Assembly: GCA_017649485.1 (NCBI GenBank) | Contig: JAGCGS010000050.1 | Coordinates: 1 to 39,695, forward strand | Origin: Bacteroidaceae bacterium | GTDB taxonomy: Bacteria > Bacteroidota > Bacteroidia > Bacteroidales > Bacteroidaceae | DNA length: 39,695 nt | Direction: 5' to 3' | Part shown: piece after piece, positions 18,609-37,913 of the stretch | Layout of the letters: the number at the start of each line of letters is the position of its first letter | Numbering within the stretch: the first letter of the stretch is position 1 | The notes under the pieces: generated by a model | Told to the model about the DNA's origin: nothing | What the model saw: the letters and a program-made list of their open reading frames with translations, nothing else | The model's database searches: none | Translations under genes and position numbers: made by a program

Positions 18609-19286
18609 ATGATTAAGATTGAAAACCTGGTGAAGAAGTTCACCACTACGGAAGTAGAGACGATTGCATTGAACAATGTAAGCTTGGAAGTGGCCGACAA
18701 GGAGTTCGTGGCCATCATGGGCCCGTCAGGATGCGGCAAGTCAACCCTGCTGAACATTATGGGCCTATTAGACAACCCTACATCAGGCGACTACTATTTA
18801 GGAGAACAGGAAGTGGGACACCTCAAGGAGAAAGACCGTACCAAAGTGCGCAAGGGCAATATCGGCTTCGTGTTCCAGAGCTTCAACCTGATTGACGAGC
18901 TGAACGTGTATGAGAACGTGGAACTGCCCTTGACTTACTTAGGTGTTCCTGCCGATGAACGCAAACGCAAGGTAAATGAGATATTGAAACGTATGGCGAT
19001 TAGTCATCGTGCCAAACACTATCCGCAGCAACTTAGTGGTGGACAGCAGCAGCGTGTCGCCATTGCCCGTGCGGTGGTGTGTGAACCCAAGATTATCCTG
19101 GCTGATGAGCCTACTGGAAACCTCGACTCAAAGAACGGCTTGGAGGTGATGCAACTGCTTACTGAGTTGAACAAGGAGGGTACTACCATCGTGATGGTGA
19201 CGCACAGCCAGCGTGACGCAGGCTTTGCCACCCGTGTTATTAACTTATTTGACGGACAGGTGGTGTCAACATCCGAAGGGCTTTGA
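18609..19286 (+). CDS. ABC transporter ATP-binding protein (LolD/MacB type)
   Basis: A 225-aa ATPase with every motif intact: Walker A GPSGCGKST (38-46), Q-loop Gln90, signature LSGGQ (142-146), Walker B ILADE (163-167) and an H-loop His in VMVTHSQR. It belongs to the MacB/LolD/FtsE branch that drives mechanotransmission rather than classical substrate transport. It is the only ATPase in the operon, so it should serve all four permeases. Its stop codon abuts the first unit of the 22-bp array at 19287. Confidence 0.95.
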   Translation: MIKIENLVKKFTTTEVETIALNNVSLEVADKEFVAIMGPSGCGKSTLLNIMGLLDNPTSGDYYLGEQEVGHLKEKDRTKVRKGNIGFVFQSFNLIDELNVYENVELPLTYLGVPADERKRKVNEILKRMAISHRAKHYPQQLSGGQQQRVAIARAVVCEPKIILADEPTGNLDSKNGLEVMQLLTELNKEGTTIVMVTHSQRDAGFATRVINLFDGQVVSTSEGL

Positions 19287-19418
19287 AGTCCCTGTGTTTT
19301 GTACTGATAGTCCCTGCGTTTTGTACCATTTGTCTGAGAGTTTTGAACTGCTGGTCCCTGGGCTTTGTACAGCCCGTTCCAAAGCCTCGGACCATCAGTC
19401 CCAATATTTAGTACATTG
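19287..19418 (+). repeat. 22-bp degenerate tandem array 1
   Basis: Six units start at 19287, 19309, 19331, 19353, 19375 and 19397, exactly 22 bp apart. The first two agree at 18 of 22 positions and later neighbours at 11-13 of 22 (about 5.5 expected by chance). The best core is AGTCCCTGYGTTTTGTAC. The unit at 19375 also reads as an inverted copy of the unit before it (CAAAGCCTCGGACC against GGTCCCTGGGCTTTG), giving a hairpin. The array begins directly after the ATPase stop codon and sits between it and permease 4. Function is unknown; it is not CRISPR (no constant repeat with unique spacers). Confidence 0.85.
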
Positions 19419-19482
19419 AGTAGGGATGGCTCGGATTAGAAACAGAGGGATTGAGCCCTAATGAAGGGGTTAATTTGAACAG

Positions 19483-19492
19483 AAAGAGGTGA
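19483..19492 (+). promoter_or_regulatory. Strong ribosome binding site of permease 4
   Basis: AAAGAGGTGA ends 6 nt before the ATG. It is a strong Shine-Dalgarno match, which is uncommon in Bacteroidetes. It confirms the start at 19499 and suggests that permease 4 is translated independently after the 212-nt gap. Confidence 0.65.
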
Positions 19493-19498
19493 TAGATT

Positions 19499-21886
19499 AT
19501 GAAACAAGCAATAAACTCTATATTTAGAAAAGGGCAGGCTAATGTGGTGAAGATTATCTGTCTGAGCATCGGTTTGGCTTTGGGTCTGCTGATGATAGCC
19601 GAGGTCATCTTTGAGCGAAGTTACGATAACTACATCCCTCGCCTGGATGATACCTATCGCGTGACGGCCACCTATCAGATGCAAGAAGGAGATCCCAAAG
19701 ATTACAACCAGACAGCAGGTGCCATTGCCCCGGGCATCAAGAATGTATGCCCCGAAGTCGAGGCTGCCACCCGTTTTACCTATCTCGATGGTGATGCCAC
19801 ATTCCTTACTGAGGAAATGCTGGCCATCAAGGGTGACTTATACCTGGCTGACTCGTCGTTTTTCGATGTGTTCCCTCGCAGAATTCTCTTTGGTGAAGAT
19901 CCGCACACGGGTCTCAACAAAGTGTATCAGGCTTATATCTCCGACAAACTATTGGAAACCGTGGGTACAGACATCATCGGCAAGACGGTGAAGTATAAGA
20001 ACAACCAAGCCCTCCAAATCCAGGTAGTGGGTGCTTTCGAGGCATTCCCCGAGAATACCCATTTACCGCAGATGGACATCCTGTTGTCACTGCCTACCTA
20101 CAAGCTGTTGCAGGGTGGTTTTGACAGTGCCAACAACTGGTTAGGCAACGACAGGTATAAAAGCTATGTCCGCCTGGCACCAGGAGTGCAGCCTGAGGCC
20201 TTGCAGACACGGATTGACCAGATGGTGGAAGACCACATGGGCGAGCAGCTGAAGCAGGCTGGCTTCAGATATGCGCTGGGCCTGAAGCCTGTAAGAAACC
20301 TCATCCTCACGGAATCCGACTACAACCGTGTGATGAACTATGTGTTCTTGGCATTTGGCATCATCATGCTGGCAGTGTCTATCTTGAACTATATCCTGTT
20401 GGTAGTGTCGTCAATGGTGAACCGAGCCAAGAGCATTGCCACCTATCGCTGCTACGGAGCTTCAGGCAAGGATATCTACAAGATGATTCTCAGCGAGTCA
20501 TTCCTTCATGTGGTATGCATCAGCCTGCCCATAGCCATACTGATTATGCTAGGCTTGCAAGACTTCATCCAAGAGAACATCGCCCACTCGTTGAAGAGCC
20601 TTTTCCCGACATCCACCATCATTATCTGTGCAGTGATCACCTTGGCGGTAACGCTGATTTGCGGCATGATGCCCGGCTATCTCTATACCAAGATACCTGT
20701 GACGTATGCCTATCGTCGCTATAGCGAGAACAAACGCCATTGGAAGTTGGGTTTGCTGTTTGCACAGTTCCTGTTGGCAGCATTCTTTGTGAATATGCTG
20801 GTAGTGTTAGGATTGCAATATAGCAAGATGACCAACTACAACTTGGGCTTTGACTACCAGAACACGCTTGCGATTTCTCTTCGCGGCATACCCGACAACG
20901 AGGCTGAGCGTGCCGTGCAGGAGTTGAAGCGAGACCCACGGGTGGCAGGCGTTTCCTGGGCTTATCAGTCGTTGGAAAGCAATCCCAGTGGTGACAATGT
21001 CATCAATATGGAAACGCATGAGCACTACATGAACATTGCCAATCTGTTTGAGGTAGGCGACAATTTTTTTGAGGTAATGGATATTCCTATTATCGAAGGC
21101 AAATCGTTTACCCCAGGCTTGAACGACAGCATACAGACCGAGATCATGGTGAGCCGTAGCTTTGTGGAACGAATGCGGGAGATAGCCGGCTGGGAAGGCT
21201 CAGGCATCGGTAAGCAGGTGTTCATCACTTCTCATGAGAAGGCACCCACCACCATTGTGGGAGTATATGAAGACCTGAAGTTAGGTTCGTTTGTGGATGG
21301 CACCGATCATCGCCCGTCGGTGATGTACTATGGTTCTGTGGGCCATCCTTTTATCCAGCGCCTCTATGTACGATTGCACGACTTCAATGAAGAGTCAGTG
21401 AATCAAATACAGCAGATAGTAAACCAGACGATGACTTCAGAGCAGGTGACAGTCATGCCGATGCGTATGCTGGTGGGCAACAACTACGAAGGTTTCAAGC
21501 ATGTGCGCAATGCTGTGCTGCTGGCAGGCCTGAGCATCTTCATTATTGCGATGATAGGTTTGATAGCCTACCTGATGGATGAGGTGAACCGTCGCAGAAG
21601 TGAGATAGCCATCCGTAAGATTGTGGGAGCCACCGTGATGGATGTGCAGCGCATCTTCCAACGTGACCTGATGCTGATAGCCCTGCCTGCCATGCTGATA
21701 GGCTTGCTCTTGGCTTGGTATGTCAGTCAGCAGGTCTTGCAGCTCTTCGAGGTGAAGATAGCTCTAACAGCATGGCTTTTCGGCGGATGCACCATTGCCG
21801 TTCTCTGCCTTGTCCTGGCTGTTGCTTCTATGCTGGTTCTGCAAACGGCTCGTACCAATCCTACCGAGAATCTCAGGACGGAATAA
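19499..21886 (+). CDS. ABC transporter permease, MacB/FtsX type (4)
   Basis: A 795-aa permease, the most divergent of the four. It keeps the N-terminal helix (about residues 17-36), periplasmic domain, three central helices (about 280-300, 335-355, 378-398), TM5 (about 418-440), second periplasmic domain and C-terminal helices. The coupling motif is NRRRSEIAIRKIVGAT and the tail TNPTENLRTE still echoes the NPVNxxKTE ending of the others. It is separated from the ATPase by array 1, with no clear internal promoter, and ends the operon at the terminator at 21895. Confidence 0.92.
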   Translation: MKQAINSIFRKGQANVVKIICLSIGLALGLLMIAEVIFERSYDNYIPRLDDTYRVTATYQMQEGDPKDYNQTAGAIAPGIKNVCPEVEAATRFTYLDGDATFLTEEMLAIKGDLYLADSSFFDVFPRRILFGEDPHTGLNKVYQAYISDKLLETVGTDIIGKTVKYKNNQALQIQVVGAFEAFPENTHLPQMDILLSLPTYKLLQGGFDSANNWLGNDRYKSYVRLAPGVQPEALQTRIDQMVEDHMGEQLKQAGFRYALGLKPVRNLILTESDYNRVMNYVFLAFGIIMLAVSILNYILLVVSSMVNRAKSIATYRCYGASGKDIYKMILSESFLHVVCISLPIAILIMLGLQDFIQENIAHSLKSLFPTSTIIICAVITLAVTLICGMMPGYLYTKIPVTYAYRRYSENKRHWKLGLLFAQFLLAAFFVNMLVVLGLQYSKMTNYNLGFDYQNTLAISLRGIPDNEAERAVQELKRDPRVAGVSWAYQSLESNPSGDNVINMETHEHYMNIANLFEVGDNFFEVMDIPIIEGKSFTPGLNDSIQTEIMVSRSFVERMREIAGWEGSGIGKQVFITSHEKAPTTIVGVYEDLKLGSFVDGTDHRPSVMYYGSVGHPFIQRLYVRLHDFNEESVNQIQQIVNQTMTSEQVTVMPMRMLVGNNYEGFKHVRNAVLLAGLSIFIIAMIGLIAYLMDEVNRRRSEIAIRKIVGATVMDVQRIFQRDLMLIALPAMLIGLLLAWYVSQQVLQLFEVKIALTAWLFGGCTIAVLCLVLAVASMLVLQTARTNPTENLRTE

Positions 21887-21894
21887 ATACAACA

Positions 21895-21918
21895 AGAGGC
21901 ACTCTTTTGGGTGCCTCT
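21895..21918. terminator. Bidirectional terminator (ABC operon / HU gene)
   Basis: An 8-bp stem AGAGGCAC/GTGCCTCT with an 8-nt loop lies 8 nt after permease 4 and 34 nt beyond the HU stop. A T-rich tract follows on both strands (CGCTTT on plus, TTGTTGTATTT on minus), so it can end both convergent transcripts. Confidence 0.7.
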
Positions 21919-21952
21919 CGCTTTAAATCTCTTACTCAATCCTGCTGGGGTA

Positions 21953-22216
21953 TTACAGCTCCAGTTCTGAGCCAGCCTTAAACTTGACATTCTTTTTTGC
22001 TGCAATATCAATAGCTTCGCCAGTAGCAGGGTTGACACCCTGGCGGGCTGCTCTCTCAACTACAGAGAATGAGCCAAAACCAACTAATGACACCTTGTCG
22101 CCATCCTTTAAAGCTTCGCTGACAGCTGCTATAGCAGCCTCTAATGCCTTTTTGCAGTCCACTTTTGTCAAGCCGGACTTTTCGGCCATTGCACTTACAA
22201 GTTCTGATTTGTTCAT
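21953..22216 (-). CDS. HU family DNA-binding protein
   Basis: An 87-aa histone-like protein that bends DNA as a dimer. It starts MNKSELVSAMAEKSGLTK, contains GFGSFSVVERAARQG and the beta-arm motif RQGVNPATGE with the intercalating Pro, and ends FKAGSELE. The start is set at MNKSELV because that is the family start; the frame continues 22 codons upstream without similarity. Own promoter at 22280-22310. HU-type proteins often help DNA looping at sigma-54 promoters, but its proximity to the exporter operon need not be meaningful. Confidence 0.95.
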   Translation of the reverse strand: MNKSELVSAMAEKSGLTKVDCKKALEAAIAAVSEALKDGDKVSLVGFGSFSVVERAARQGVNPATGEAIDIAAKKNVKFKAGSELEL

Positions 22217-22279
22217 AAATAAATATACTAAAAAATTACAATAAAAGTCAGTATGATATTCAAACCTTTTTTCAGACAG

Positions 22280-22310
22280 CAAATGTAGAGCATTATTTTA
22301 ACATAATCAA
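22280..22310 (-). promoter_or_regulatory. Promoter of the HU gene
   Basis: On the minus strand TTG (22308-22310), a 20-nt spacer and TACATTTG (22280-22287). The AT-rich leader is about 55-60 nt long. Confidence 0.75.
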
Positions 22311-22392
22311 GGAAACGTACAAAAAAACTTGCTTGAAAATGAAAAAAAACATAAACGGGCTTCAAATAATAGTAAAAGCAAGATATTATTGC

Positions 22393-22400
22393 TATTTTTG
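22393..22400 (+). promoter_or_regulatory. Candidate -7 box of the rhomboid operon
   Basis: TATTTTTG matches TAnnTTTG, 24 nt before the ATG. No good -33 element is visible 20 nt upstream. Confidence 0.4.
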
Positions 22401-22424
22401 CATTGTTTTTTAGTGGAATAATAC

Positions 22425-23105
22425 ATGAATAACTTACCGACAATTACCAAAAATCTACTTATCATCAACGTATTGATGTATCTGGCTACCGTGGTGCTGC
22501 AATCGCGCTTCGGTATTGACCTGGCTGATTACTTAGGCTTGCATTTTTTTATGGCAAGTGATTTCAAAATCTGGCAGTTGTTCACCTATATGTTCATGCA
22601 TGGCAGTTTCATGCATGTATTCTTCAATATGTTTGCTGTATGGATGTTTGGCCGAATCTTGGAGCAAGTATGGGGTAGCGACAGGTTTCTGTTTTTCTAC
22701 TTGGTGTGCGGCATTGGCGCGGGTTTGGTGCAAGAGGTGGTGCAATATGTGCAGTATGCTGTGGACCTCTCCCAATATACACAGGTGAACTTGGGTTATG
22801 CTGTTGTGCCGATGGAAGAATACCTGAACATGTTAACTACAGTGGGTGCCTCTGGTGCCGTCTATGGTATCCTGTTAGGATTTGGTATGACATTCCCTGA
22901 AGAAAAGATATTCATATTTCCGCTTCCCGTACCCATCAAAGCGAAGTATTTCGTAGCTTTCTATGCTGTAATTGAGCTTTTGGAAGGCTTGAGTCTGTCC
23001 GACAACGTGGCACATTTTGCTCACTTGGGTGGCATGATATTCGGATATATATTAATAAGGTATTGGCGAAACAAGTATAAGAGAAATGGCTACTATCGTT
23101 CGTGA
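22425..23105 (+). CDS. Rhomboid intramembrane serine protease (1)
   Basis: A 226-aa polytopic membrane protease that cuts transmembrane helices. The catalytic dyad is visible: Ser143 in GASGAVYG and His197 in AHFAHLGG. The early HGSFMHVFFNM motif (residues 59-69), typical of rhomboid helix 2, is present. It has about six hydrophobic segments and a short basic tail. The gene overlaps the next rhomboid gene by 20 nt, showing tight co-translation. The last gene of this cluster is an EEP-family protein. Confidence 0.93.
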   Translation: MNNLPTITKNLLIINVLMYLATVVLQSRFGIDLADYLGLHFFMASDFKIWQLFTYMFMHGSFMHVFFNMFAVWMFGRILEQVWGSDRFLFFYLVCGIGAGLVQEVVQYVQYAVDLSQYTQVNLGYAVVPMEEYLNMLTTVGASGAVYGILLGFGMTFPEEKIFIFPLPVPIKAKYFVAFYAVIELLEGLSLSDNVAHFAHLGGMIFGYILIRYWRNKYKRNGYYRS

Positions 23106-24012
23106 CTTACAAGATGTTTTCCGTAGGGGTGAGATATACGTCAGGCTGATATTTATCAATGTGGCGGTTTTTCTTGCCTTTACACTGTTGCAGGTAGTGC
23201 TGAGGCTTTTCAACGTGAGCATCAGTGATTGGCTGCAATGGCTGGAGATGCCTGCATCCGTGAGTCAGTGGTTGCTACAACCCTGGAGTATCATTACCTA
23301 TATGTTCCTGCATGCCGGTGTGATGCATTTGCTGTTCAATATGCTGTGGCTCTATTGGTTTGGCCAGCTATTCCTGTATTTTTTCTCTGCAAGACACCTT
23401 CGTGGGGTCTATATCTTGGGAGGTATCTGTGGTGCGTTGTTGTATCTGTTGGCATACAATGTATTTCCCTACTTGACTCCTTATACTGACTATACCTACA
23501 TGTTAGGGGCATCTGCTTCTGTGCTGGCTATTGTTTCTGCTGTGGCGTATAGGGAACCCGACTATAGGGTGAATCTCTTGTTGTTGGGTAGTTTGCCACT
23601 GAAATATTTCGCGTTGATAGTGATTGGCATGGATTTGCTCCTTATCACCTCAGACAATGCAGGAGGACATATAGCCCATTTAGGTGGTGCCTTGAGTGGT
23701 TTGCTCTTTGCCTGGCTCTTGGGAAAAGGCACCGACCTCACCCGATTGATTAATCAAGTTATTGACTTCTTCCACCATCCAATGGCGTTTCGTTTCAAGC
23801 CGAGAAAGCCTAAGATGAAAATCAATTATGGTGCAAAAGCAGAGGAATCTGCAGAATCTGCATCAAAGGAGCAAAAAGCTGAAGAACCCAAGCCACAAGA
23901 AACAAGTCATGAGAATCGCGTCAACGAGATTCGTGAGAAAATAAAGCAGTCGGGTTATCAGGGTTTGACTGAAGAAGAGAAACGTGAACTGTTTAACGCA
24001 AGTATTCGTTAA
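23086..24012 (+). CDS. Rhomboid family protease (2) with soluble tail
   Basis: A 308-aa paralogue of the preceding protein with Ser143 in GASASVLA and His195 in GGHIAHLGG, so the dyad is intact although the residues after Ser differ from GASGA. HAGVMHLLFNM (76-86) is the helix-2 motif. After the membrane core (to about residue 225) comes a charged cytoplasmic tail with a low-complexity Ala/Glu/Lys stretch (about 245-275) and a helical end, VNEIREKIKQSGYQGLTEEE, resembling the small C-terminal domain on other Bacteroidetes rhomboids. The ATG lies inside the end of rhomboid 1; the next gene starts 3 nt after its stop. Confidence 0.92.
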   Translation: MATIVRDLQDVFRRGEIYVRLIFINVAVFLAFTLLQVVLRLFNVSISDWLQWLEMPASVSQWLLQPWSIITYMFLHAGVMHLLFNMLWLYWFGQLFLYFFSARHLRGVYILGGICGALLYLLAYNVFPYLTPYTDYTYMLGASASVLAIVSAVAYREPDYRVNLLLLGSLPLKYFALIVIGMDLLLITSDNAGGHIAHLGGALSGLLFAWLLGKGTDLTRLINQVIDFFHHPMAFRFKPRKPKMKINYGAKAEESAESASKEQKAEEPKPQETSHENRVNEIREKIKQSGYQGLTEEEKRELFNASIR

Positions 24013-24015
24013 GAC

Positions 24016-25113
24016 ATGAGAAGCCTGGGCAAAATCCTGTCGTTAGTGGTGTGGGTCATTGTTATACTGGCATCTGCAGGCTTGCTTTTTGCAGCATATA
24101 GTCAGGTGCTGGTACAACCTGTCAGGTTTCCCATACTCTCTTTGGCAGGCTTTGTCTTTACCCCATTGGCGATGTTCAACATACTTCTTGTATTGCTTTT
24201 TTTAGTGCTGCGAAGTTTCAGGTTCATTTGGCTCCCCTTGCTCAGCTTGGTATTGTGCTATTCACAAATCCACGATTGTATTCCCTTCAATTCCCCAGTG
24301 GCAAGTAAACCTGAAGAAAGTCTGAAGATACTTTCTTTCAACACCATGAGTCTGGGCAGAATGGAGAAGAAAAACGGTACCAATGCCGTGTTGGAGTACC
24401 TCAAGGCAAGTGGTGCCGACATCATTTGCTTGCAGGAATATAATGTGAGTACCAACAAGAAATTTGTTACCCAGGCAGATGTAGATAAGGCTTTGGCCGA
24501 CTATCCCTATCGTGCCACCAAACTCGAACAGGGACAGAAAAACATGGCTCATATGGCAATCTTCTCTAAGTTGCCTGTACTCAAGACAGAGCGGGTCAAT
24601 ATGCAGAGAAGCAGCAATGGAGCCATGGCATATCAGCTGAAATGGGGCTTAGATACCCTGCTCTTGGTAAACTGCCATCTGGAGTCTAACAAACTCACCT
24701 CTCAAGACAAGGAACTCTATGAGCAAATGATTGAAAAGCATGAGAAAGAGCAGATGAAGGAGGGCATGAAGGTGTTAGTGAAGAAACTGGCGGAGGCAGC
24801 AGCCATCAGGGCACCTCAGGCAGACTCTATAAACAGTTACTTGGCTCGTCGCCCCTATATATATAAAGTGGTGTGTGGTGATTTCAACGACATACCCCTC
24901 TCTTATACCCATCATGTACTGACACGCCAGTTGCACGATGCCTTTACAGAGTCTGGTAGGGGCTTTGGCGTGTCTTATCACAAAAACAAATTTCTTTTCC
25001 GAATAGACCATTTGCTTGTCAGTGATGCCCTAAAAACGCAAAATTGTGCCGTAGATGCCTCAATTCAGGCCTCAGACCACTATCCAATATGGGCGTATGT
25101 AGAAAAAAATTAA
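24016..25113 (+). CDS. Membrane-anchored endonuclease/exonuclease/phosphatase family protein
   Basis: A 365-aa protein with three N-terminal membrane helices (about residues 7-28, 35-62 and 66-85) and an EEP hydrolase domain (about 100-363). Metal and phosphate motifs are SFNTMS, DIICLQE (catalytic Glu), CGDFND and a terminal SDHYP. The substrate could be nucleic acid, a phospholipid or an inositol phosphate; the sequence does not say. It is the third gene of the rhomboid operon, 3 nt downstream of rhomboid 2. The EEP domain should be cytoplasmic or periplasmic depending on helix count; three helices put it opposite the N-terminus. Confidence 0.9.
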   Translation: MRSLGKILSLVVWVIVILASAGLLFAAYSQVLVQPVRFPILSLAGFVFTPLAMFNILLVLLFLVLRSFRFIWLPLLSLVLCYSQIHDCIPFNSPVASKPEESLKILSFNTMSLGRMEKKNGTNAVLEYLKASGADIICLQEYNVSTNKKFVTQADVDKALADYPYRATKLEQGQKNMAHMAIFSKLPVLKTERVNMQRSSNGAMAYQLKWGLDTLLLVNCHLESNKLTSQDKELYEQMIEKHEKEQMKEGMKVLVKKLAEAAAIRAPQADSINSYLARRPYIYKVVCGDFNDIPLSYTHHVLTRQLHDAFTESGRGFGVSYHKNKFLFRIDHLLVSDALKTQNCAVDASIQASDHYPIWAYVEKN

Positions 25114-25127
25114 ATATTTGGCTTAGT

Positions 25128-25161
25128 TTTGTGGTTAAATGGAAAAAAACAACTAACTTTG
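25128..25161 (+). promoter_or_regulatory. Promoter of secDF
   Basis: TAACTTTG (25154-25161) is a full -7 box. TTTG at 25128-25131 lies 22 nt upstream, a slightly long spacer. The leader is about 50 nt. Confidence 0.6.
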
Positions 25162-25216
25162 CAGCTTCGTAAAGCGGAAAGTAATAAAAAGTATATAAAA
25201 TTAACTCAAAACTAAG

Positions 25217-28180: not shown

Positions 28181-28185
28181 TAATT

Positions 28186-28275
28186 AAATTTGACCACTGA
28201 CCATTGCCTTTGACCATTATTTCATGCTTTAATTCGCATGATAATGTTCAATAGTCAATGGTAAATGGTCAATTT
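28186..28275. repeat. Large imperfect hairpin of TGACCATT-type heptamers
   Basis: The arms 28186-28227 and 28236-28275 are reverse complements over about 40 nt with a few mismatches and bulges; the loop is TTTAATTC. The right arm is a 7-bp repeat (AGTCAAT, GGTAAAT, GGTCAAT) and the left arm carries TGACCAC, TGACCAT and GACCATT. It fills the gap between secDF and tRNA-Arg and could act as a terminator or an RNA-processing structure, though no T-run follows. Confidence 0.75.
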
Positions 28276-28281
28276 AAAGTA

Positions 28282-28356
28282 GGTCCTGTAGTTCAATGGA
28301 TAGAATGGAGGTTTCCTAAACCTTAGATCCGAGTTCGATTCTCGGCGGGACTACCA
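28282..28356 (+). tRNA. tRNA-Arg (anticodon CCT)
   Basis: The cloverleaf has acceptor GGTCCTG paired with CGGGACT (two G-U pairs), D-stem GTTC/GAAT, anticodon stem GAGGT/ACCTT with loop TTCCTAA, and T-arm CCGAG-TTCGATT-CTCGG. Discriminator A is followed by an encoded CCA (28354-28356). The anticodon CCT reads AGG. No separate promoter with a TAnnTTTG box is visible, so it may be transcribed with secDF or from an unseen promoter within the hairpin region. Confidence 0.92.
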
Positions 28357-28393
28357 GTTTTCACTTATCAAATACATTTCTAATATTATTTTT

Positions 28394-30241: not shown

Positions 30242-30261
30242 CCCATTAAAGAAGTAAAGAC

Positions 30262-31266
30262 ATGAGCGAACATACAGCAAAAGACTATAAAAAAGGACAA
30301 CCCCGCTGGTGTCCGGGTTGCGGTGACCATTTCTTCCTGGCTTCCTTGCATAAGGCAATGGCAGAACTGGGTGTTGACCCTTGGAATATTGCAGTTATCT
30401 CAGGCATCGGTTGCTCCAGCCGTTTGCCTTACTATATGAATACCTACGCTATGCAGACCATTCACGGCCGTGCGGCAGCTATTGCGTCTGGTGCTAAGGT
30501 GACTAATCCCGACCTTACCGTTTGGCAGGTGTCAGGCGATGGCGATGGCTTGGCTATTGGTGGTAACCACTTTATCCATGCTGTCCGTCGTAATGTTGAC
30601 CTCAATATGATTCTGTTGAACAACCGTATCTATGGTTTGACTAAAGGACAGTATTCACCTACCTCTCCACGTGGTTTCGTGAGCAAGTCATCTCCTTATG
30701 GTACCGTGGAAGATCCATTCCATCCTGCAGAGCTTTGCTTTGGAGCACGTGGCAGGTTCTTTGCACGTGCAGCTGCTGTTGATGCAGCAGGTACCGTGGA
30801 GATACTGAAGGCAGCTGCTAAGCACAAGGGTGCCGCTGTTTGTGAGATTCTGCAGAATTGCATGATTTTCAACAACGGTGTATATGATGCCTTGGCTAAG
30901 AAAGAAGACCGTGCAAAGAATGCTATTTATCTGCAGCATGGCAAGCCTATGCTCTTTGGTGAGAACAACGAGTATGGCTTGATGCAGGAAGGCTTTGGCT
31001 TGAAAGTAGTGAAGTTGGGTGAGAACGGCATCACCGAGAAAGATATTCTGGTGCACGATGCTCACTGCGAAGATAACACAGTGCAACTGAAACTGGCATT
31101 GATGGAGGGCCCTGACTTCCCGGTTGCTTTGGGCGTTATCCGCGATGTTGATGCACCTACCTACAACGATGCTGTGAATGCGCAGGTAGAAGAAATCAAG
31201 GCAAAGAAGAATTATCATAACTTCGAGGAACTGTTGTTGACCAACGACACTTGGGAAGTGAAGTAA
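30262..31266 (+). CDS. korB: 2-oxoacid:ferredoxin oxidoreductase, beta subunit
   Basis: A 334-aa thiamine-diphosphate-binding subunit. RWCPGCGDHFFL near the N-terminus and GIGCSSRLPYY supply cysteines for the Fe-S cluster. The ThDP motif is SGDGDGLAIGGNHFIHA...NLNMILLNN (about residues 92-118). The NRIYGLTKGQYSPTS stretch that lines the CoA side follows. It partners KorA encoded 20 nt upstream and ends at a strong intrinsic terminator. Confidence 0.95.
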   Translation: MSEHTAKDYKKGQPRWCPGCGDHFFLASLHKAMAELGVDPWNIAVISGIGCSSRLPYYMNTYAMQTIHGRAAAIASGAKVTNPDLTVWQVSGDGDGLAIGGNHFIHAVRRNVDLNMILLNNRIYGLTKGQYSPTSPRGFVSKSSPYGTVEDPFHPAELCFGARGRFFARAAAVDAAGTVEILKAAAKHKGAAVCEILQNCMIFNNGVYDALAKKEDRAKNAIYLQHGKPMLFGENNEYGLMQEGFGLKVVKLGENGITEKDILVHDAHCEDNTVQLKLALMEGPDFPVALGVIRDVDAPTYNDAVNAQVEEIKAKKNYHNFEELLLTNDTWEVK

Positions 31267-31288
31267 TTCTTGATTAGATAATAAAAAT

Positions 31289-31326
31289 AAACGGCAGACC
31301 TTTCCCAAAGACCTGCCGTTTTTTTG
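31289..31326 (+). terminator. Terminator of the korAB operon
   Basis: The 8-9 bp stem AACGGCAG/CTGCCGTT, with an inner CTTT/AAAG pairing in the loop, is followed by a run of eight T. It lies 23 nt after the korB stop. Confidence 0.92.
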
Positions 31327-31353
31327 TTCAACAAAATAACCTTAAAACCATTT

Positions 31354-33663
31354 TTATTGTATTCTGTTACGTTCTTCATTAGCAGCACCTGTTCCCTTAT
31401 ATTTACTCTTTGCTGCATTGAAGTTATAGCGGAAAGTTAGTTCTATGGCGCGTGTATCGTTTATCTTGTGCATGAATATCTTGCGAACATCACTATAGAG
31501 CCAAGCCTTGCTGCGACTCGTGTTGAATACATCTTCGCAAGAGAGTTTCAAGCTCCATTTATCGTGAGCAAATGCCTTATAGATACTCAAATCAAACTTC
31601 CACATCCCTTTCATGTAAAGGTTTTCCGTATTGCCATTTGTACGATAAGCAAAGTCAGCATTAATCCATGTGTCAGCTGGCAACTGAATAGCATTGTTGA
31701 AGCGGATTATACCTAATGGGTGGTTCATATTTTTCTTTTTGCCACAAAAAGTCAAGTTGAATTGTTGTGCCATCATGGCTGTCATCAATGTAGGATGCCA
31801 GATTCCGAAAGACGGGGAGATAGATACCATTGCCTGCAACTGGTTCAAACTTTTGGCATTCTGCTTTTGCAAGAGAGCAATGCTAGGATTGTCGCCATAT
31901 TGTGTATAAGCAGTGATGATGTAATCCGATGTGTGGCTGTACTCGAGCATCATATTCAGCCATTTGTAGCCTATTGCCAAAGAGATATTATCGCGATAGA
32001 ATGGACGCAGGAATGGATTTCCACTTTGGTAAGTATAGCGATTAATGTATTCCACGTTGCTGCTCAGCTGACTATAGGCAGGGCGTTCCACTTTTCGGTT
32101 ATAACTCAATCTTACTCTTGTGTTTTTGATTGGAAACATCAGCATAGCCGATGGAAACAGGTTGTCATATATACGGCTTTGTTCCTGCATCTTCACATCG
32201 TGATCATAATAACGACTATCGATGTGTTCGTAGCGTAATCCTGCACTTAGCATCACTTTGCCTATATTTTGCATTACTTCGACAAACAAAGCACCGTTTG
32301 ACTCTTCGATACGTGTTTTGCTGTCATTAATAAGATGTTCCAAGTTGCTGTAATTATCAGTGCGATGGGTATGACTGAACTCTCCGCCGAATGAGAAATT
32401 GCCCTTGCCAAGCTGCCTTGTTGCAACTGCTTTACCTGCATACATACGGCTCTTGGCATCACTCTCTGTTGTTACAATCCTATCATCTGCCTGGGTGGAT
32501 GTTTCTTTCAATAGCTGGTCGGTATTGGCCCTGTTCCACAAGGCATCTACGTTTATATCCATAGTCCATTTCCCGAAACTGCCATTGTAATATCCACTCA
32601 ACAAATGATTGGTATTGTTTATATCAGCATGACTGTTATTTGAGGTCTCATTGTCCAGCACTCCATCAATCGTCATTGTAGCAAACGATTCATTGTCCTG
32701 TTTCGTAGGACGGTATGCAGGTTGATAGATGGCACCAATGGAATGATGCTCATTAAAGACATAGTTAAATCCAATCTTGCCGGCAAATGTCTGGTTCTTA
32801 TTGTAACGTTTGGCAATACCATCTTGCAGCAAGCGAGGTAAGAGGAATGTTTCTTGTGAAGTAATATTTGTTACGCGGTCTTTTATATTGCTGTATTCCA
32901 ACATACCGAAGATGTCAAATCCTCCCTTTCGATAGTTGAAGTTGAATTCATCTAGTCCGTAGAAATAATGCCTGATGCCTGCTACCGCCCTATTGTCAAA
33001 ACTCCATCCTTCACCTATAGGCTTGATGGTGGTGATACGGATGACGGCATTGACGGTGGCATCATACCTTGCTCCAGGATTGGTTACTACTTCCACATTT
33101 TTCACTTGTGACGAATTCAACTGATCTAACTCAGAAGTATTACGCATTTGTCTGCCGTTGATGTAAATAAGTGGAGTGCCCTTACCAAACACCTCAATGC
33201 CACCATTACTGCTGATAACACCAGGTACTCTTGCCAATACATCGTTAGCAGTTCCTGCCCTCGATAAGGCACTACCTTGTATGGTAGTCACCAAAGCGTC
33301 TCGTTTCAGTTCTGTTTTTGGAAGATTAGCCTTTACTGTCACTTCACCAAGCAAGTTATCACTTTCCAACATTTGTATATCCCCTAATTCACCGTTGGCC
33401 TGATGTACAAACATGTCGTCATAGCCAATACATGATATACGAAGTAAGCTAGCTTTATCAGTTTCCAATCTGAATAGGCCTTCGCTATCTGTTACCACAC
33501 CATTTATATAGAGAGAATCTCTTTCTTGCAGCAACACCACATTTGCATAGCTGATAGGTTTTTCTCTCGTGTCAGTCACTCTGCCACTAATGACATTTTG
33601 GGCGTAGGTTGCCCCTGTGCTGATACTCATGAGCACCAGCACCAATAGTTTTAATGCTTTCAT
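31354..33663 (-). CDS. Outer-membrane beta-barrel protein (OMP_b-brl_3, TonB-receptor-like)
   Basis: A 769-aa exported protein. The signal peptide ends near residue 21 (GATYAQ). A carboxypeptidase-regulatory-like beta-sandwich follows (about 25-100, SGRVTDTREKPISYANVVLL...). A TonB-receptor plug-like domain is at about 115-215 (GTANDVLARVPGV, NGRQMRN, VKNVEVVTNPGARYDAT). The rest is beta-barrel and ends in the SKYKGTGA motif common to this family. There is no STN signalling domain and no SusD partner. It is the last gene of an operon with an ECF sigma factor and an anti-sigma-like protein (21-nt gap), so the barrel may be the output or the sensor of that system. Ligand unknown. Confidence 0.9.
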   Translation of the reverse strand: MKALKLLVLVLMSISTGATYAQNVISGRVTDTREKPISYANVVLLQERDSLYINGVVTDSEGLFRLETDKASLLRISCIGYDDMFVHQANGELGDIQMLESDNLLGEVTVKANLPKTELKRDALVTTIQGSALSRAGTANDVLARVPGVISSNGGIEVFGKGTPLIYINGRQMRNTSELDQLNSSQVKNVEVVTNPGARYDATVNAVIRITTIKPIGEGWSFDNRAVAGIRHYFYGLDEFNFNYRKGGFDIFGMLEYSNIKDRVTNITSQETFLLPRLLQDGIAKRYNKNQTFAGKIGFNYVFNEHHSIGAIYQPAYRPTKQDNESFATMTIDGVLDNETSNNSHADINNTNHLLSGYYNGSFGKWTMDINVDALWNRANTDQLLKETSTQADDRIVTTESDAKSRMYAGKAVATRQLGKGNFSFGGEFSHTHRTDNYSNLEHLINDSKTRIEESNGALFVEVMQNIGKVMLSAGLRYEHIDSRYYDHDVKMQEQSRIYDNLFPSAMLMFPIKNTRVRLSYNRKVERPAYSQLSSNVEYINRYTYQSGNPFLRPFYRDNISLAIGYKWLNMMLEYSHTSDYIITAYTQYGDNPSIALLQKQNAKSLNQLQAMVSISPSFGIWHPTLMTAMMAQQFNLTFCGKKKNMNHPLGIIRFNNAIQLPADTWINADFAYRTNGNTENLYMKGMWKFDLSIYKAFAHDKWSLKLSCEDVFNTSRSKAWLYSDVRKIFMHKINDTRAIELTFRYNFNAAKSKYKGTGAANEERNRIQ

Positions 33664-33684
33664 TGATGATTATTTAATAATTAA

Positions 33685-34860
33685 TTATAGACCTCCCATA
33701 AATATCCATTCACCTTTTTCATTCTTGCCTAATGACAGGTTGTTTTGAACAGTCGTACTGTCATCACGAAGTTTCAATACATATGGCACATACTCGCAAG
33801 GCATAGAGCCAGATTGGAAAGGCTCTCCAATACTGAGCAGTCTGCAACCTTTAAAGACTGGACCAAACATTTCTGCTATGTTTGCAGGCATCATTTCCTC
33901 TAACGTCTCAGTATCCCATGCGCCTAATGATTTGAGGAATTTCTCTGCGACTTCTTTGGCTGACATTTCAGCCAGAATAGATTTTCTATTGCTGGGTGAG
34001 GAATCGGCATTACTGAACTCAATTTCGGTGGGCTTAGCTAATACCTCTTTCATTCCCAACGCTACTGAATAGTCGATATGTCGAGTCCTCATCACTTCTA
34101 CTTCCTGGTCATCTACGATGATACTTACAGATAGCTGCTTCAATTGCTTGGTAGCTTTGTCAAATATGTAGCGCCTGATATGTTCTGCATCTTTCAGTGA
34201 TTTGTTGAGCATGAAGTCATTGATATAGTTATAATGGAGGTATGCATGCACAGTCAGATGTATTTCATCACCTACACGCTTTACCAAGTACTCATCGCCA
34301 TCGTTCTTTTGTGAAAGTTCTAATTCACGTTCCAATATCTTATTTGGTTCCAATAAGATACTGATGTAATCCAAAAATGTTTCTTTGCCTTTTCCTGTTT
34401 CCCAGCCCACTTGGTAAGCTGGTACCCAAGTAAAAGCACTGTCATTGATACCAGTGGCTACCCTGCCTTGTTTATCTACTCGCCAAGCCAACTCGTCACC
34501 ATATACCACCTCAATTTGATGGTTAACAAAAGCTTCTTCAGCATCTATCATCTTGAAGTTTTCTTGGGGTAAGGTGCGTATTTCTACTTCCATCACCATC
34601 GAGCGTATGTTGTTGAGGTAGCTGATAGCATTTTGCAAAAGCGAACTGGCGGTAAGGCGAGAAGGGCTTAGCATCAAGATAACAGGCAAACAAGCTGCAA
34701 TACCTGATACTGATAGCCAGTGCCACATCCTAATCACATTACGTGGTTTACGGCTTTCTTTTGCTTTAGCCAACACTCGCTGCTTAAAGTCTTTCGATAT
34801 GTGTACCTCACATTTTGGAATCAGCTCCGTCCTTATCATATCAATATCTCTTTGATTCAT
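33685..34860 (-). CDS. Anti-sigma-like transmembrane protein
   Basis: A 391-aa protein with one membrane helix (about residues 46-65, WHWLSVSGIAACLPVILML). About 45 N-terminal residues are cytoplasmic and basic; the remaining 325 residues should be periplasmic. Its start overlaps the sigma gene stop as ATGA, the usual arrangement of a sigma/anti-sigma pair. I see no FecR domain and no zinc-finger anti-sigma motif (HxxxCxxC), so its role is inferred from position and topology. The periplasmic part has a LolA-like or MucB-like feel (N-terminal IRSMVMEVEIRTLPQENF) but I cannot assign it. The C-terminal 100 residues look like a separate small alpha-beta domain. Confidence 0.75.
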   Translation of the reverse strand: MNQRDIDMIRTELIPKCEVHISKDFKQRVLAKAKESRKPRNVIRMWHWLSVSGIAACLPVILMLSPSRLTASSLLQNAISYLNNIRSMVMEVEIRTLPQENFKMIDAEEAFVNHQIEVVYGDELAWRVDKQGRVATGINDSAFTWVPAYQVGWETGKGKETFLDYISILLEPNKILERELELSQKNDGDEYLVKRVGDEIHLTVHAYLHYNYINDFMLNKSLKDAEHIRRYIFDKATKQLKQLSVSIIVDDQEVEVMRTRHIDYSVALGMKEVLAKPTEIEFSNADSSPSNRKSILAEMSAKEVAEKFLKSLGAWDTETLEEMMPANIAEMFGPVFKGCRLLSIGEPFQSGSMPCEYVPYVLKLRDDSTTVQNNLSLGKNEKGEWIFMGGL

Positions 34861-35354
34861 AATTTATCCTCCTGTTCCCATCTTTTCCTTAATTTGTCTA
34901 TTCCGCTTTTAAACCTCGACTTAATCGTGGTCTCTGGAGTTCCCGTTACTTTGGCGATCTCTACGAAGGTAAGGTCGTCAATTAGGTGCATGGTAATAAC
35001 ATCAGCTTGATCTGCTGGCAATACACTCAACATTTTCCAGATACGGTTATATTCCTCTTGTAATGCCTGTTCCTCATCATTAGCCATTTGCACTTGTTCT
35101 AAGGGAATGGACTCTTGCTGTTTATGCCGATGCCAATCATTGCAGGCATTATATACCATTCTGTAGAGATACATTCGCATACTTTCGTCATTTTCTATTA
35201 CGAACTCTTTTTCAAAGAGTCTCAAGAATACATCTTGTATAATGTCTTCTGCATCTTCTCTGTTGCCGATACGGAAGTAGGCAAAGCGGAACAAATAATC
35301 TTGATTCTGCTCTATCACTGCCTCAAGTCTCTTATATCTTTTGTTGCTATTCAT
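34857..35354 (-). CDS. ECF-type RNA polymerase sigma factor
   Basis: A 165-aa sigma-70 family member with regions 2 and 4 only. Region 2 is at about residues 15-80 (YLFRFAYFRIGNREDAEDIIQDVFLRLFE) and region 4 at about 105-160 (VITMHLIDDLTFVEIAKVTGTPETTIKSRFKSGIDKLRK). The start chosen gives MNSNKRYKRL; the frame is open 39 codons further upstream but that stretch is Lys/Cys-rich, unlike the family, and overlaps the promoter of the divergent MBL gene. It heads the operon sigma, anti-sigma-like, outer-membrane barrel. No TAnnTTTG box precedes it, so it may drive its own promoter. Confidence 0.93.
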   Translation of the reverse strand: MNSNKRYKRLEAVIEQNQDYLFRFAYFRIGNREDAEDIIQDVFLRLFEKEFVIENDESMRMYLYRMVYNACNDWHRHKQQESIPLEQVQMANDEEQALQEEYNRIWKMLSVLPADQADVITMHLIDDLTFVEIAKVTGTPETTIKSRFKSGIDKLRKRWEQEDKL

Positions 35355-35451
35355 TTCTTTCCGCCTTTCATTGTATAAGACGTAATAAGAGCCTAAAAAG
35401 ACGAATTTGCCAGTCACTTTTTTTCTTTTCTTTTTCTTACAGTTGCATCCC

Positions 35452-35483
35452 TTTGCTTTTATCACCTGCATTTGTTATCTTTG
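35452..35483 (+). promoter_or_regulatory. Promoter of the MBL-fold gene
   Basis: TTTG (35452-35455), exactly 20 nt, then TATCTTTG (35476-35483): a full consensus match. The leader is about 18 nt before the ATG at 35508. Confidence 0.85.
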
Positions 35484-35507
35484 TAGGGTAATATAATAAT
35501 ATAAGGT

Positions 35508-36308
35508 ATGGAGAACGAGATAATCATATTAGGTACGGGCAATGCAATGGTCACCCGATGTTACAACACTTGCTTCGTAGTGCGAAGCAAAAGTGGGGCT
35601 ACTATGATGGTGGATGCAGGTGGAGGTAATGGTATACTTAACCAGATGGCACAGTCTGGTTTGGCTTTCGAGGACATCAGTGACCTTTTTGTTACCCACA
35701 CCCATACTGACCATATCTTAGGAGTGATATGGATGATGCGTATGGCGCTCCAGTACCAGAAACCACAAGTGTTGTGCATCCATAGCCACAAGAAAGCGCT
35801 CGATTTGCTGGACCTTATGTGCCGTCAAATGTTGCCCAAGAAGCAAGTAGAGCGTATTGGCATCAATGTAGTGTATTGCGAATTACATGATGGTGATAGC
35901 TTCGATGTGGGTGATATGCATGTGCAATGCTTCGATATCCACTCCACTAAGGAGCTCCAGTACGGCTTTGCCCTCACTTTCGCCGATGGCAAACGACTGG
36001 CTTGCCTGGGTGATGAGCCTTATTGTGAACAGAATGAGGCTTATATAAAGGGTGCCGATTGGATGATGAGTGAGGCATTTTGTCTCTACGAAGACCGTGA
36101 ACGTTTTCAACCTTACAAGAAACATCATAGCACCGCTCTTGATGCTGCCCGTCTGGCTAAGTCATTGGAAGTCAAGAACCTTATCCTCTATCATACTGAG
36201 GATAAGACTTTGGATACTCGTAAGGAACGCTACACTGCTGAGGCGCAAAGCGAATTTGATGGCAAAGTGTTTGTCCCTGATGATTTGGAGAGAATAGTCA
36301 TTGACTAG
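35508..36308 (+). CDS. MBL-fold metallo-hydrolase (RNase Z-like)
   Basis: A 266-aa metallo-beta-lactamase-fold hydrolase. The metal motif HTHTDH is at residues 64-69. Further candidate ligands are a His in FDIHSTKE, the Asp in CLGDEP, and HHSTALDAA plus LYHTED near the C-terminus. The overall order resembles the RNase Z/arylsulfatase-type subgroup, but the exosite arm of tRNase Z is not evident, so the substrate is open. It is alone on its transcript; a 465-nt intergenic region with array 2 follows. Confidence 0.88.
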   Translation: MENEIIILGTGNAMVTRCYNTCFVVRSKSGATMMVDAGGGNGILNQMAQSGLAFEDISDLFVTHTHTDHILGVIWMMRMALQYQKPQVLCIHSHKKALDLLDLMCRQMLPKKQVERIGINVVYCELHDGDSFDVGDMHVQCFDIHSTKELQYGFALTFADGKRLACLGDEPYCEQNEAYIKGADWMMSEAFCLYEDRERFQPYKKHHSTALDAARLAKSLEVKNLILYHTEDKTLDTRKERYTAEAQSEFDGKVFVPDDLERIVID

Positions 36309-36366
36309 AGATTGATATGTTTCTGAATCACGTAATTGATGTTGATTTGATTGGCTGATGCCTCTT

Positions 36367-36554
36367 AAAGCTATCTGCAAAGCTTGGCATTTTTTTAGCT
36401 AAAGCTTGCTATTACAGAGGGGAAAGCTTGGCATTGTTCGTTCCAGTATCTGCTATCACCCGTCGCAGTATCTGCCATACCCCCATAGGAGATACTGCGA
36501 TGACTCATAGGAAGCCTTGCGACGACCCATAGCAAAGCCTCCGTCAACTCATGG
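36367..36554 (+). repeat. 22-bp degenerate tandem array 2
   Basis: After a 12-bp partial unit (36367), eight full units start every 22 bp from 36379 to 36533. The first 8-13 bases fall into families: AAAGCTTGGCATT (three units from 36379), AGTATCTGCYAT (36445, 36467) and GARRYMYTGCGA (36489, 36511). Units at 36467-36554 also share a CATAG/CATGG ending. Neighbours agree at up to 16 of 22 positions. TCGCAGTATCT (36463-36473) recurs as its exact reverse complement at 36490-36500, and GGAAGCCTTGC (36510-36520) recurs inverted near 36532-36542, so hairpins can form. The array is intergenic and has no reading frame of note. Confidence 0.88.
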
Positions 36555-36623
36555 AAGGCATTCGGATAGAATAGACTATTTTGTACTTTTAAAAGTCAGC
36601 TTTATGAGGTTGTTTTTTGACCT

Positions 36624-36652
36624 AATCCCTCTCTAATGGATAGAAGGGGATT
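36624..36652. repeat. Inverted repeat between array 2 and the next promoter
   Basis: AATCCCTCTCT pairs with AGAAGGGGATT across a 7-nt loop, with one or two imperfect pairs. No T-run follows on plus, so it is a weak terminator candidate or an operator. Confidence 0.45.
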
Positions 36653-36687
36653 TGACATTTCCAGGAAGGGATATGGCAGCCTGATTA

Positions 36688-36720
36688 TTTGGTACTTTCT
36701 GCCACTTGTATTTATCTTTG
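36688..36720 (+). promoter_or_regulatory. Promoter of the 105-aa membrane protein
   Basis: TTTG (36688-36691), 21 nt, then TATCTTTG (36713-36720). The leader is about 47 nt to the ATG at 36774. Confidence 0.8.
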
Positions 36721-36773
36721 CAGCATCGGTCGCGACCCGATACCAAATTGTCTAACTATTAAAATGTATTATT

Positions 36774-37091
36774 ATGAACGTATTTGAGTTATTTACTGAA
36801 GGTGGTTTATTGGGCATGGCTGTATTGACCATTCTATTCGTATTATTGCTTTTTGCAGCATGGAAGGCACCGGCTTGGGTGAAGGAAATTGGTCAAGCGG
36901 CATTGATATGGGGTTTCTTCTGGGAGTTTGCTGGCATCTATCAGATGTTAGATGTATTGCAGGAACTGAATGATGTGCCCATGTCAGTAATATATGGCGG
37001 TGCCAAGGTGACATTTGTACCAGCATTGTATGGTATGCTGATTTATCTTGTCTCTTTAGTCATCATCTTGGCGCAAAAACCAAGATTGTAG
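36774..37091 (+). CDS. Small membrane protein, possibly MotA/TolQ/ExbB-like
   Basis: A 105-aa protein with three hydrophobic segments (about residues 12-30, 40-56 and 80-101). The start FELFTEGGLLGMAVLTILFV recalls the first helix of MotA/TolQ/ExbB channels, which in Bacteroidetes include short members, but the match is weak and no ExbD or TolR partner is nearby. It has its own promoter and precedes the membrane LytTR gene by 44 nt, so the two may act together, for instance as a sensor and regulator pair. Confidence 0.7.
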   Translation: MNVFELFTEGGLLGMAVLTILFVLLLFAAWKAPAWVKEIGQAALIWGFFWEFAGIYQMLDVLQELNDVPMSVIYGGAKVTFVPALYGMLIYLVSLVIILAQKPRL

Positions 37092-37100
37092 TAGATGGAG

Positions 37101-37131
37101 TTGGAGATGACGAGTAGTTTTGTTAGTTTTG
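37101..37131 (+). promoter_or_regulatory. Candidate promoter of the LytTR gene
   Basis: TTG (37101-37103), 20 nt, then TAGTTTTG (37124-37131). The -7 box ends only 4 nt before the predicted ATG, so the transcript would be nearly leaderless or the true start lies downstream. Confidence 0.5.
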
Positions 37132-37135
37132 TGTT

Positions 37136-37837
37136 ATGAAGTACCTAATTACCATAGGATGCTGGATGGTGGAGGTGATCCTTATTGCTACCATTCTGAT
37201 CAGTATGGACTATACATGGTGGCAGGCTCTAATGCTTGCCACCATGTTCCTGCCTGTATTGTTGGCGATGAAGTATTTCTTGCCACAAGTGAAGTGGAAA
37301 CGGACACGTAAGTTGATTACAGGCATTGTGTGTCTGTTCCTCTCTTTCTTGCTATTAGAGTATCTGCTCCTGATATGCTGTCACACATGGATCAAAAGTT
37401 ACACAAACGAGATGCCTTCCGTCCTGCTCAACCCTGTATTCCTGACCTTGCTTCTGGCTATGCTCTTCGTAGCTGATACAGCTGTTGGCAAGCAACTTGA
37501 CAAGCGGTTTGGCAAAATGCCAAAGAGCATCACTTTTATTTCCGACCGCAAAAATGTTTCCTTGCCGACAGAGCAGATTCTCTATGTGGAGTCTAATGAT
37601 GCAGAAACGTGGGTGCATACCCTTGATGGAGAGCGTTATAGAAACAAGACGAATATCTCACAGTGGGAACAGATACTCGAAGATGGCTTTCTCAGAACTC
37701 ATCGTTCTTTCTTGGTTAACACCAAGCAAATCACACAAGTGAATTCTGACTCTGTGATGCTTGGAGAGGTCACTATCCCTGTGTCGAGGAAATACAAAGA
37801 AATGGTAGCCACATATTTTGCGACTACCACTCTTTAA
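37136..37837 (+). CDS. Membrane-bound LytTR-family transcriptional regulator
   Basis: A 233-aa protein with four hydrophobic segments in the first 120 residues and a C-terminal LytTR DNA-binding domain (about residues 135-230; SITFISDRKNVSLPTEQILYVES, FLRTHRSFLVNTKQI, IPVSRKYKEMV). It lacks a receiver domain, so it resembles the membrane-anchored LytTR regulators that work with a small membrane partner rather than a kinase; the 105-aa protein upstream is a candidate partner. The start may instead be Met11 (37166), given the promoter position. Array 3 begins around its stop codon. Confidence 0.9.
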   Translation: MKYLITIGCWMVEVILIATILISMDYTWWQALMLATMFLPVLLAMKYFLPQVKWKRTRKLITGIVCLFLSFLLLEYLLLICCHTWIKSYTNEMPSVLLNPVFLTLLLAMLFVADTAVGKQLDKRFGKMPKSITFISDRKNVSLPTEQILYVESNDAETWVHTLDGERYRNKTNISQWEQILEDGFLRTHRSFLVNTKQITQVNSDSVMLGEVTIPVSRKYKEMVATYFATTTL

Positions 37838-37913
37838 GCTCAATCTGTTTACTCCGAGCTGATGCCTTGATTACTCCGAGCAATAGGCTCATCCTCTCGG
37901 AGCAAAGATGTCA
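37826..37913 (+). repeat. 22-bp degenerate tandem array 3
   Basis: Units start at 37848, 37870 and 37892, with a weaker one at 37826 overlapping the end of the LytTR gene. The first two share TTACTCCGAGC (14 of 22 positions agree overall) and the next pair agrees at 12 of 22. The third unit contains CTCGGAG, the inverted form of CTCCGAG, so a hairpin of 7 bp can form with the second. The array occupies the gap between two convergent genes and may double as their boundary, but no T-run follows. Confidence 0.7.

Follow-up and report, generated by a model that had tools for sequence, protein, structure and literature searches.

Dispersed arrays with a constant 22-bp period and changing words in a Bacteroidaceae genome and its relatives

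Can tandem arrays that keep a unit length of 22 bp while their words change belong to one kind of element, and what would hold the period constant? The question arises from contig C58 (JAGCGS010000050.1) of a Bacteroidaceae bacterium (GCA_017649485.1), which was analysed over its whole length of 39,695 nucleotides and is called the window here; the genome (G000) comprises 2,615,097 bases in 69 contigs. A previous sequence-only reading had reported three arrays with a 22-bp period in the window, and all three were recovered. The 22-bp arrays are real, and arrays of the same period occur elsewhere in this genome and in related genomes. As a tentative explanation, we propose that they could be modular, dispersed, non-coding elements which are read by a protein at a pitch of two helical turns and which spread in blocks. 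The three arrays are laid out as follows.

19287..19418, no strand assigned: array 1, six 22-bp units, of which four are direct, one is inverted (19375-19396) and one is direct
36357..36562, no strand assigned: whole family A element of array 2 (see below), about 206 bp long, starting with GATGCCT and ending with GGCATT
36379..36482, minus strand: array 2, left arm with five units, which have the cores AAAGCTT (three times) and AGTATCT (twice)
36484..36571, plus strand: array 2, right arm with four oppositely oriented units, scoring 64.5 bits against the family A profile
37846..37911, minus strand: array 3, three units, the third with an inverted core

The ends of the array 2 element were set by resemblance to copies in the related genome G063, and its direct repeats with a start-to-start spacing of 22 bp cover 36379-36567. 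The right-arm cores are AGATACT, AAGCCTT, AAAGCCT and AAGGCAT. Two further traits that had been ascribed to the arrays hold for all three. Each contains inverted units, in array 2 from about position 36484 and in array 3 as CTCGGAG vs CTCCGAG by reading of the sequence. Each also lies behind a plus-strand gene: array 1 starts right at its stop codon, and the distance to the gene is about 40-70 bp for array 2 and about 1-9 bp for array 3.

The period was scanned at a threshold of at least 28 matches per 44-base window. In the window, lag 22 was found at two places and lag 27 at one, and no other lag from 10 to 40 reached the threshold. This genome was sampled in the window and 40 stretches, 728,939 bases in all, with coding regions masked by a simple open reading frame rule. 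Its non-coding part gave 12 cases at lag 22, four at 23, one at 24 and three at 18, and none at lags 19, 20, 25, 26, 27 and 29; lags 14, 21, 28 and 35 mostly reflect arrays of another class, whose unit has 7 bases. Stacks of four units numbered 12 at period 22, to which array 2 contributes two, one per arm, as well as five at 23, one at 24, three at 30 and four at 18, with none at 19-21 and 25-29. Array 3 consists of three units only and on its own fails this four-unit scan.

About 0.8 Mb from the same genus was scanned in addition, namely 200 kb each of G117 and G157, 140 kb each of G099 and G064, and 120 kb of G066, which hold three, six, one, three and four four-unit arrays of period 22, respectively. 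In the pooled non-coding sequence of the six genomes, in which arrays of common descent are counted separately, 29 arrays have period 22. The sequence-only reading would have been refuted by a scan in which lag 22 is no more frequent than lags 18 to 26; this is not what was found, the corresponding counts at 18-21 and 23-26 being 4, 0, 0, 4, 9, 2, 0 and 0. Beyond this range, there are three arrays at period 30 and none at 27-29 or 31-40, and the counts for periods 13-18 are 12, 4, 11, 5, 3 and 4. From five shuffles of the non-coding sequence, 0.2 arrays would be expected at period 22, 1.2 at period 23 and 0.2 up to 4.0 at nine further periods (4.0 at 19). A control of 250 kb from E. coli K-12 contained one array each at 13, 14, 16 and 19, and none at 20-40. 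Twenty stretches (343 kb) from other families of the order yielded no array of period 22, five of period 21 and three of period 23, so period 22 itself is not universal across the order. Several of these 21- and 23-bp arrays are A+T-rich; L247 (21 bp) and L242 (23 bp) are clear cases.

Other intergenic arrays were encountered during these scans. Units of 7 bases (e.g. ATTGACA) are repeated in L014 (7194-7305) and in L006, L011, L015, L017, L018, L033 and L043 of G000; direct repeats of TAACTGA between genes are reportedly treated in PMC4679880. Units of 18 bp are repeated in L017 (2914-3023, reading like TCCGAACTAAGGGGACTG) and L024 (8472-8564).

One group of 22-bp arrays, family A, typically consists of two arms whose units face opposite ways about a CCCC centre. 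When up to three mismatches were allowed, the pattern CATAGGAGATATTNNGACGA was found in the 729 kb sampled here at 44 sites (22 per strand) in 20 places, against one match for the reversed control; arrays are present at 18 of these 20 places, while L098 and L100 look like solitary matches. Where both strands match, the units point away from the centre TCTCCYATRCCCCYATAGGAGA and are spaced by 24 or 46 (24+22) bases, as noted at eleven places. Of 50 neighbouring units that could be scored at 18 family A places, 42 are spaced by an exact multiple of 22, and the other eight fall one base short of it. The centre pattern, again with up to three mismatches, occurs in six of 148 genomes (G000, G063, G064, G066, G097 and G099) and in none of 59 genomes of other genera; G117 and G157, although of the same genus, have no family A match. 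A single family A copy, used as the query, had no match among plasmids and phages.

In G063, 20 of 21 sites were fetched, and 17 of these copies align over ten units, the other three (L151-L153) forming another subtype. Identity to the G063 consensus averages 91-96% in the three central units and 64-83% in the outer ones, and the best-conserved positions among the 170 units of the 17 copies are T3, A4, G5, A7 and T13. Copies vary by whole units, as in L138, where the right arm is one unit shorter, and their flanks are mostly dissimilar. Family A thus comprises dispersed intergenic copies with a variable number of units. As a separate observation, the element and gap in L153 (G063) and L278 (G099) are near-identical, with the adjoining gene about 78% identical over 245 bp, which may reflect recent exchange or unusual conservation.

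How are the window arrays related to this family? The sequence-only reading had called them unrelated in sequence, and this did not hold. The family A profile was built from 200 units of G063, as three units at 22-bp spacing, without any window sequence. At 12 bits or more it has 18 matches in the 729 kb; 17 are family A arms by eye and the last is array 1, which fits in another register and on the other strand (minus strand, 14.7 bits, permutation p=0.001 against its column-permuted self; p=0.071 when only its first four units are used). Seventeen matches reach 18 bits when the units are spaced by 22, and spacings of 18-21 and 23-26 give no match of that score. The earlier phasing of arrays 1 and 2, with A1-G2-T3 and T7-G8 in common, uses a different register from these matches. 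The profile of a second family, C, was likewise free of window sequence and derived from 12 units of L004 and G063. Array 3 scores 11.0 bits against it and ranks sixth in the 729 kb (p=0.027, nominal and from three units), below L004 (a seed), L021, L043, one coding match and L027, and above three coding matches at 9.4-9.8 bits. The spacing control for family C is weak, with five matches of 12 bits or more at spacing 22 and one to three at each other spacing, some of these being L004 itself out of register. In the G063 arrays L134, L144 and L152, families A and C abut in register, L134 and L144 perhaps through one event.

Judged from these profiles, array 2 can be placed firmly in family A, array 1 belongs there with good support, and array 3 is moderately supported as a member of family C, a sister of family A. 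Common ancestry therefore explains much of what is seen in the window. The earlier proposal that a common mechanism, not common ancestry of the words, unites the arrays is accordingly only partly sustained: the window arrays are largely kin, while most arrays of G117 and G157 fit neither family (none of eight tested fits A and one fits C; the ninth, L213, was left out). In this genome, L014, L024 (at 8616) and L027 fit neither A nor C at p<0.05.

A further family, B, has a 23-bp unit with the core ATTAGTAAT and is found at L024 (4577-4737), L043 (18714-18830), L030 (8754-8868) and L011 (10999-11070). At L083, L086, L091 and L092, family A arrays continue into a linker and family B-like units.

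The units themselves give a hint of what may be read. As had been noted for the window arrays, conservation is concentrated in about half of the unit, and this holds for the class: across the 29 22-bp arrays, several of common descent, conserved columns cluster (z of 5.4, 3.2 and 3.1 at lags 1, 2 and 3, and of -3.5 and -3.4 at lags 10 and 11). Because of this clustering, each 22-bp unit is most likely one putative binding site of a DNA-binding protein. A pitch of two helical turns would place every site of an arm on one DNA face, which may be why the pitch is kept; binding on one face, as the sequence-only reading had suggested, would agree with the clustered columns. A reader with a fixed footprint and drifting specificity would account for one pitch with many words. 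A recombinase or transposase acting in trans would spread the arrays as blocks to intergenic places. Under this explanation, array 1 would be a diverged copy, array 2 a fairly complete copy and array 3 a short remnant of the sister family.

Alternatively, the arrays could be functionless minisatellites in which slippage or unequal recombination duplicates whole units and the 22-bp step is a by-product. The whole-unit variation of copies agrees with this, as does L194, where adjacent units are more alike than distant ones (similarity 0.82, 0.77, 0.68, 0.59 and 0.36 at distances 1-5); such a decay was not seen in L004 and L206. At L149, an element common to G063, G097 and G099, divergence of the whole element (14.4%) is near that of the right flank (16.3%), the left flank showing 9.1%. 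We consider this alternative unlikely; slippage alone leaves the clustered columns, the opposed arms and the dispersal of family A unexplained.

In some copies the core evolves more slowly than the rest of the unit, which counts for units read by a protein as well as for host use. In nine units of array 2 and its counterpart in RUG12062, the 7-bp core (unit positions 7-13) differs at 1 of 63 positions and the rest at 34 of 135 (p 7e-6). The core was likewise slower to change in L149/L264 (2/70 against 31/150, p 2e-4). Among twelve further comparisons chosen by shared flanks, some of them redundant, the effect is present in L142/L276 (12/56 against 59/120, p 3e-4) and nominal in L106/L136 (p 0.016, with a flank of only 116 bp); three pairs lack it (see below), and L149/L263, L153/L278 and L286/L282 have too few changes. 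Slower change of the core is thus strong in some orthologous copies and not general. A decaying transposon copy need not keep its cores, and their retention in array 2/RUG12062 and L149/L264 favours the view that the arrays are host sites, such as landing places of a nucleoid protein, sites of a LytTR-type regulator binding direct repeats two turns apart or boundaries behind genes, whose spread would be incidental, as for the bacterial interspersed mosaic elements (BIMEs). A precedent for the layout is AgrA, which binds two direct repeats (PMC4227749). The gene context agrees, with 14 convergent, 13 tandem and 4 divergent gaps among the 31 classified of 36 family A loci (five unclassified); however, few divergent gaps are expected of neutral insertion too, and several copy pairs lack core protection. 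The AgrA repeats are said to be spaced by two turns.

The stability of place bears on host use, and the neighbourhood of the window arrays is as follows.

18609..19286, plus strand: ABC transporter ATPase gene (PF00005), 5' of array 1
19287..19494, no strand assigned: stretch of about 208 bp holding array 1, from comparison with G099, G066 and G063
19499..21886, plus strand: MacB/FtsX-type permease gene, 3' of array 1, from domain match and locus comparison
37136..37837, plus strand: LytTR-domain gene (PF04397), between arrays 2 and 3

Array 1 is missing from this place in three relatives: in G099 and G066 the ATPase and MacB genes overlap at ATGA, and in G063 about 50 bp without array 1 lie between them. 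By reading of the sequence, the ATPase gene in the window still ends in Glu-Gly-Leu-stop and the start of the MacB gene is intact. The place of array 2 carries 22-bp arrays of other words in G099 (L045) and G064 (L047) and no array in G066 (L048) and RUG12482 (L044), and the gene upstream of it is common only to G099 and RUG12062. Array 3 was not seen behind the LytTR gene in the relatives displayed. Such turnover argues against host sites, and we regard this explanation, too, as unlikely on balance. Dispersal in blocks leans towards mobility and protected cores towards use by the host, and both may apply.

Two observations were made at these places in passing. In G064 (L181, C71:11300-12000), a different insert of similar length occupies the place of array 1 and has an 11-bp period (GAACGGAGGAT), half of 22. 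In RUG12062 (L051, 3690-4010), the family A element of array 2 lies upstream of the LytTR operon and is joined to a shortened LytTR gene; since the element abuts this gene and the small gene preceding LytTR was not found there, a deletion ending at the element is suggested.

Opposed arms could also mean that the element acts as structured RNA or single-stranded DNA, with its arms paired. The 20 G063 copies do fold better than their flanks (mean z of -4.4 and -3.5 on the two strands vs -1.2 for 24 flank stretches), and the variable base pair of the centre, in words -1 and 0, is A-T, G-C or G-T in 50 of 58 copies. In G099, however, the 14 copies show 8 G-C, 2 G-T, 4 A-C and no A-T. Most other unit pairs (the exceptions being -1 with 2, and 2 with 3) are without excess pairing, Rfam gave nothing above the gathering score in 17 loci, and dyad symmetry of the unit was found in only one of 43 arrays at p<0.05. 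A folded active form appears very improbable to us. Pairing of arm to arm as a selected trait was unsupported beyond the centre, and a palindromic unit or mini-hairpin as a shared trait was ruled out by the rarity of dyads.

Returning to elements that are read by a protein and spread in blocks, several results weigh against this explanation. No protein was identified as the reader of the units, and only 10 of the 43 arrays have an inverted unit detected at a distance of up to 200 bp. No core effect was observed in the own-genome paralogues L084/L085 (5/70 against 14/150, p 0.40) or in L145/L283 (p 0.69), L126/L279 (p 0.33; left arm out of register) and L285/L273 (p 0.53). Flanks of the G063 copies are not all independent: L136 and L138 share a left flank, as do L139 and L146, and four copies share a right extension. 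Among the 17 G063 copies, both terminal words are exact in four (left AATGCCT in six, right GGCATT in eight), and this minority lowers our confidence; a consistent, convincing target duplication was not found in them. Candidate enzymes are equally scarce. Y1_Tnp was without a match in G063, G066, G097 and G099 (four of the six family A genomes; incomplete) and present in G000 and G064, Mu-transpos_C was not found in ten genomes, where the controls were silent too, and rve (three of four genomes) and DDE_Tnp_1 (one of four) were nowhere seen flanked by two arms. In addition, inspection of L141, L139 and L149 revealed no readable empty site for a family A copy.

The absence of transposase genes is weak evidence, because draft genomes often miss insertion elements. 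Arrays are present at four of six loci with such genes, which is suggestive. At L187, an rve gene and a family A element are separated by about 0.5 kb, and at L188 a composite made of A and B units has apparently received rve genes; both look like nested insertions. L190 and L191 each have a DDE_Tnp_1 gene near a 22-bp array, at distances of about 0.9 and 0.5 kb, respectively. An autonomous partner was not obtained from these loci, as no gene stands between two arms. The arrays of L190 (305-480) and L191 (485-620) in G064 are alike (AAGTATCAAACCTATAGTTAGC) and lie near different DDE_Tnp_1 genes; they perhaps represent a family amplified in G064.

The sequence-only reading recognised no described element with these traits, and our searches agree: no known repeat family was matched, and the sole close relative in the searched literature, which is thin in subscription journals, is BrickBuilt of Porphyromonas gingivalis, the closest known system. 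BrickBuilt is described as a 23-nt minisatellite within a miniature inverted-repeat transposable element, and 22-nt tandem repeats are mentioned there too (PMC4596501). It shares with our arrays the bacterial order, imperfect, spacer-free tandem units of near-equal length, about 20 intergenic copies that are dispersed and vary in unit number, and one less conserved half of the unit. It differs in having one 23-nt word family with leader, tail and IS5-like ends (GAGACC...), where the elements here have 22-bp units, several word families, two opposed arms and other ends. Families A and C are of 22 bp, and family B has the 23-bp length. The 17 G063 copies end otherwise than in the BrickBuilt/ISPg1-like terminal repeats GAGACCTTTGCA, for which the window and 17 loci gave 10 matches at up to two mismatches vs about 5 expected.

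Other systems are more distant. Repetitive extragenic palindromes (REPs) and BIMEs are likewise extragenic, modular, non-autonomous, species-specific and made of units in both orientations (PMC2817692), but a REP is palindromic and linked to a RAYT gene, while the units here are mostly non-palindromic. REP/RAYT membership was ruled out by the single dyad and by the lack of Y1_Tnp in four of the six family A genomes; over all, Y1_Tnp was found in four of 14 genomes. The BOX repeats of streptococci are also modular and intergenic with a variable count of an inner unit, which is about 45 bp long, and belong to unrelated bacteria. Multiple 22-bp sites are reported for the transposon ends bound by TnsB (PMC9371665), and long, internally repetitive ends with multiple transposase sites for the Foldback-like Galileo (PMC3688188). 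Facing ends with several 22-bp sites (TnsB) or tandem repeats holding many sites (Galileo) are shared with our arrays; in contrast, no transposase gene with such ends and no clear target duplication was found here.

On a wider scale, these arrays might be part of a Bacteroidales-wide system that reads or copies many unrelated words at a fixed pitch of 21-23 bp, each lineage amplifying its own words between genes. One half of each unit would be constant and the other free, the arrays would offer many landing sites in a row to a protein family that keeps its footprint while its specificity drifts, and BrickBuilt would be one case. We regard this as conceivable, albeit rather doubtful. A constant 22-bp period with changing words raises the question of what measures two DNA turns here. 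If a protein were found at the units, minisatellites of the BrickBuilt type would be explained too, and it might lead to a mobilising enzyme or to a chromosome-organising factor new to the order.

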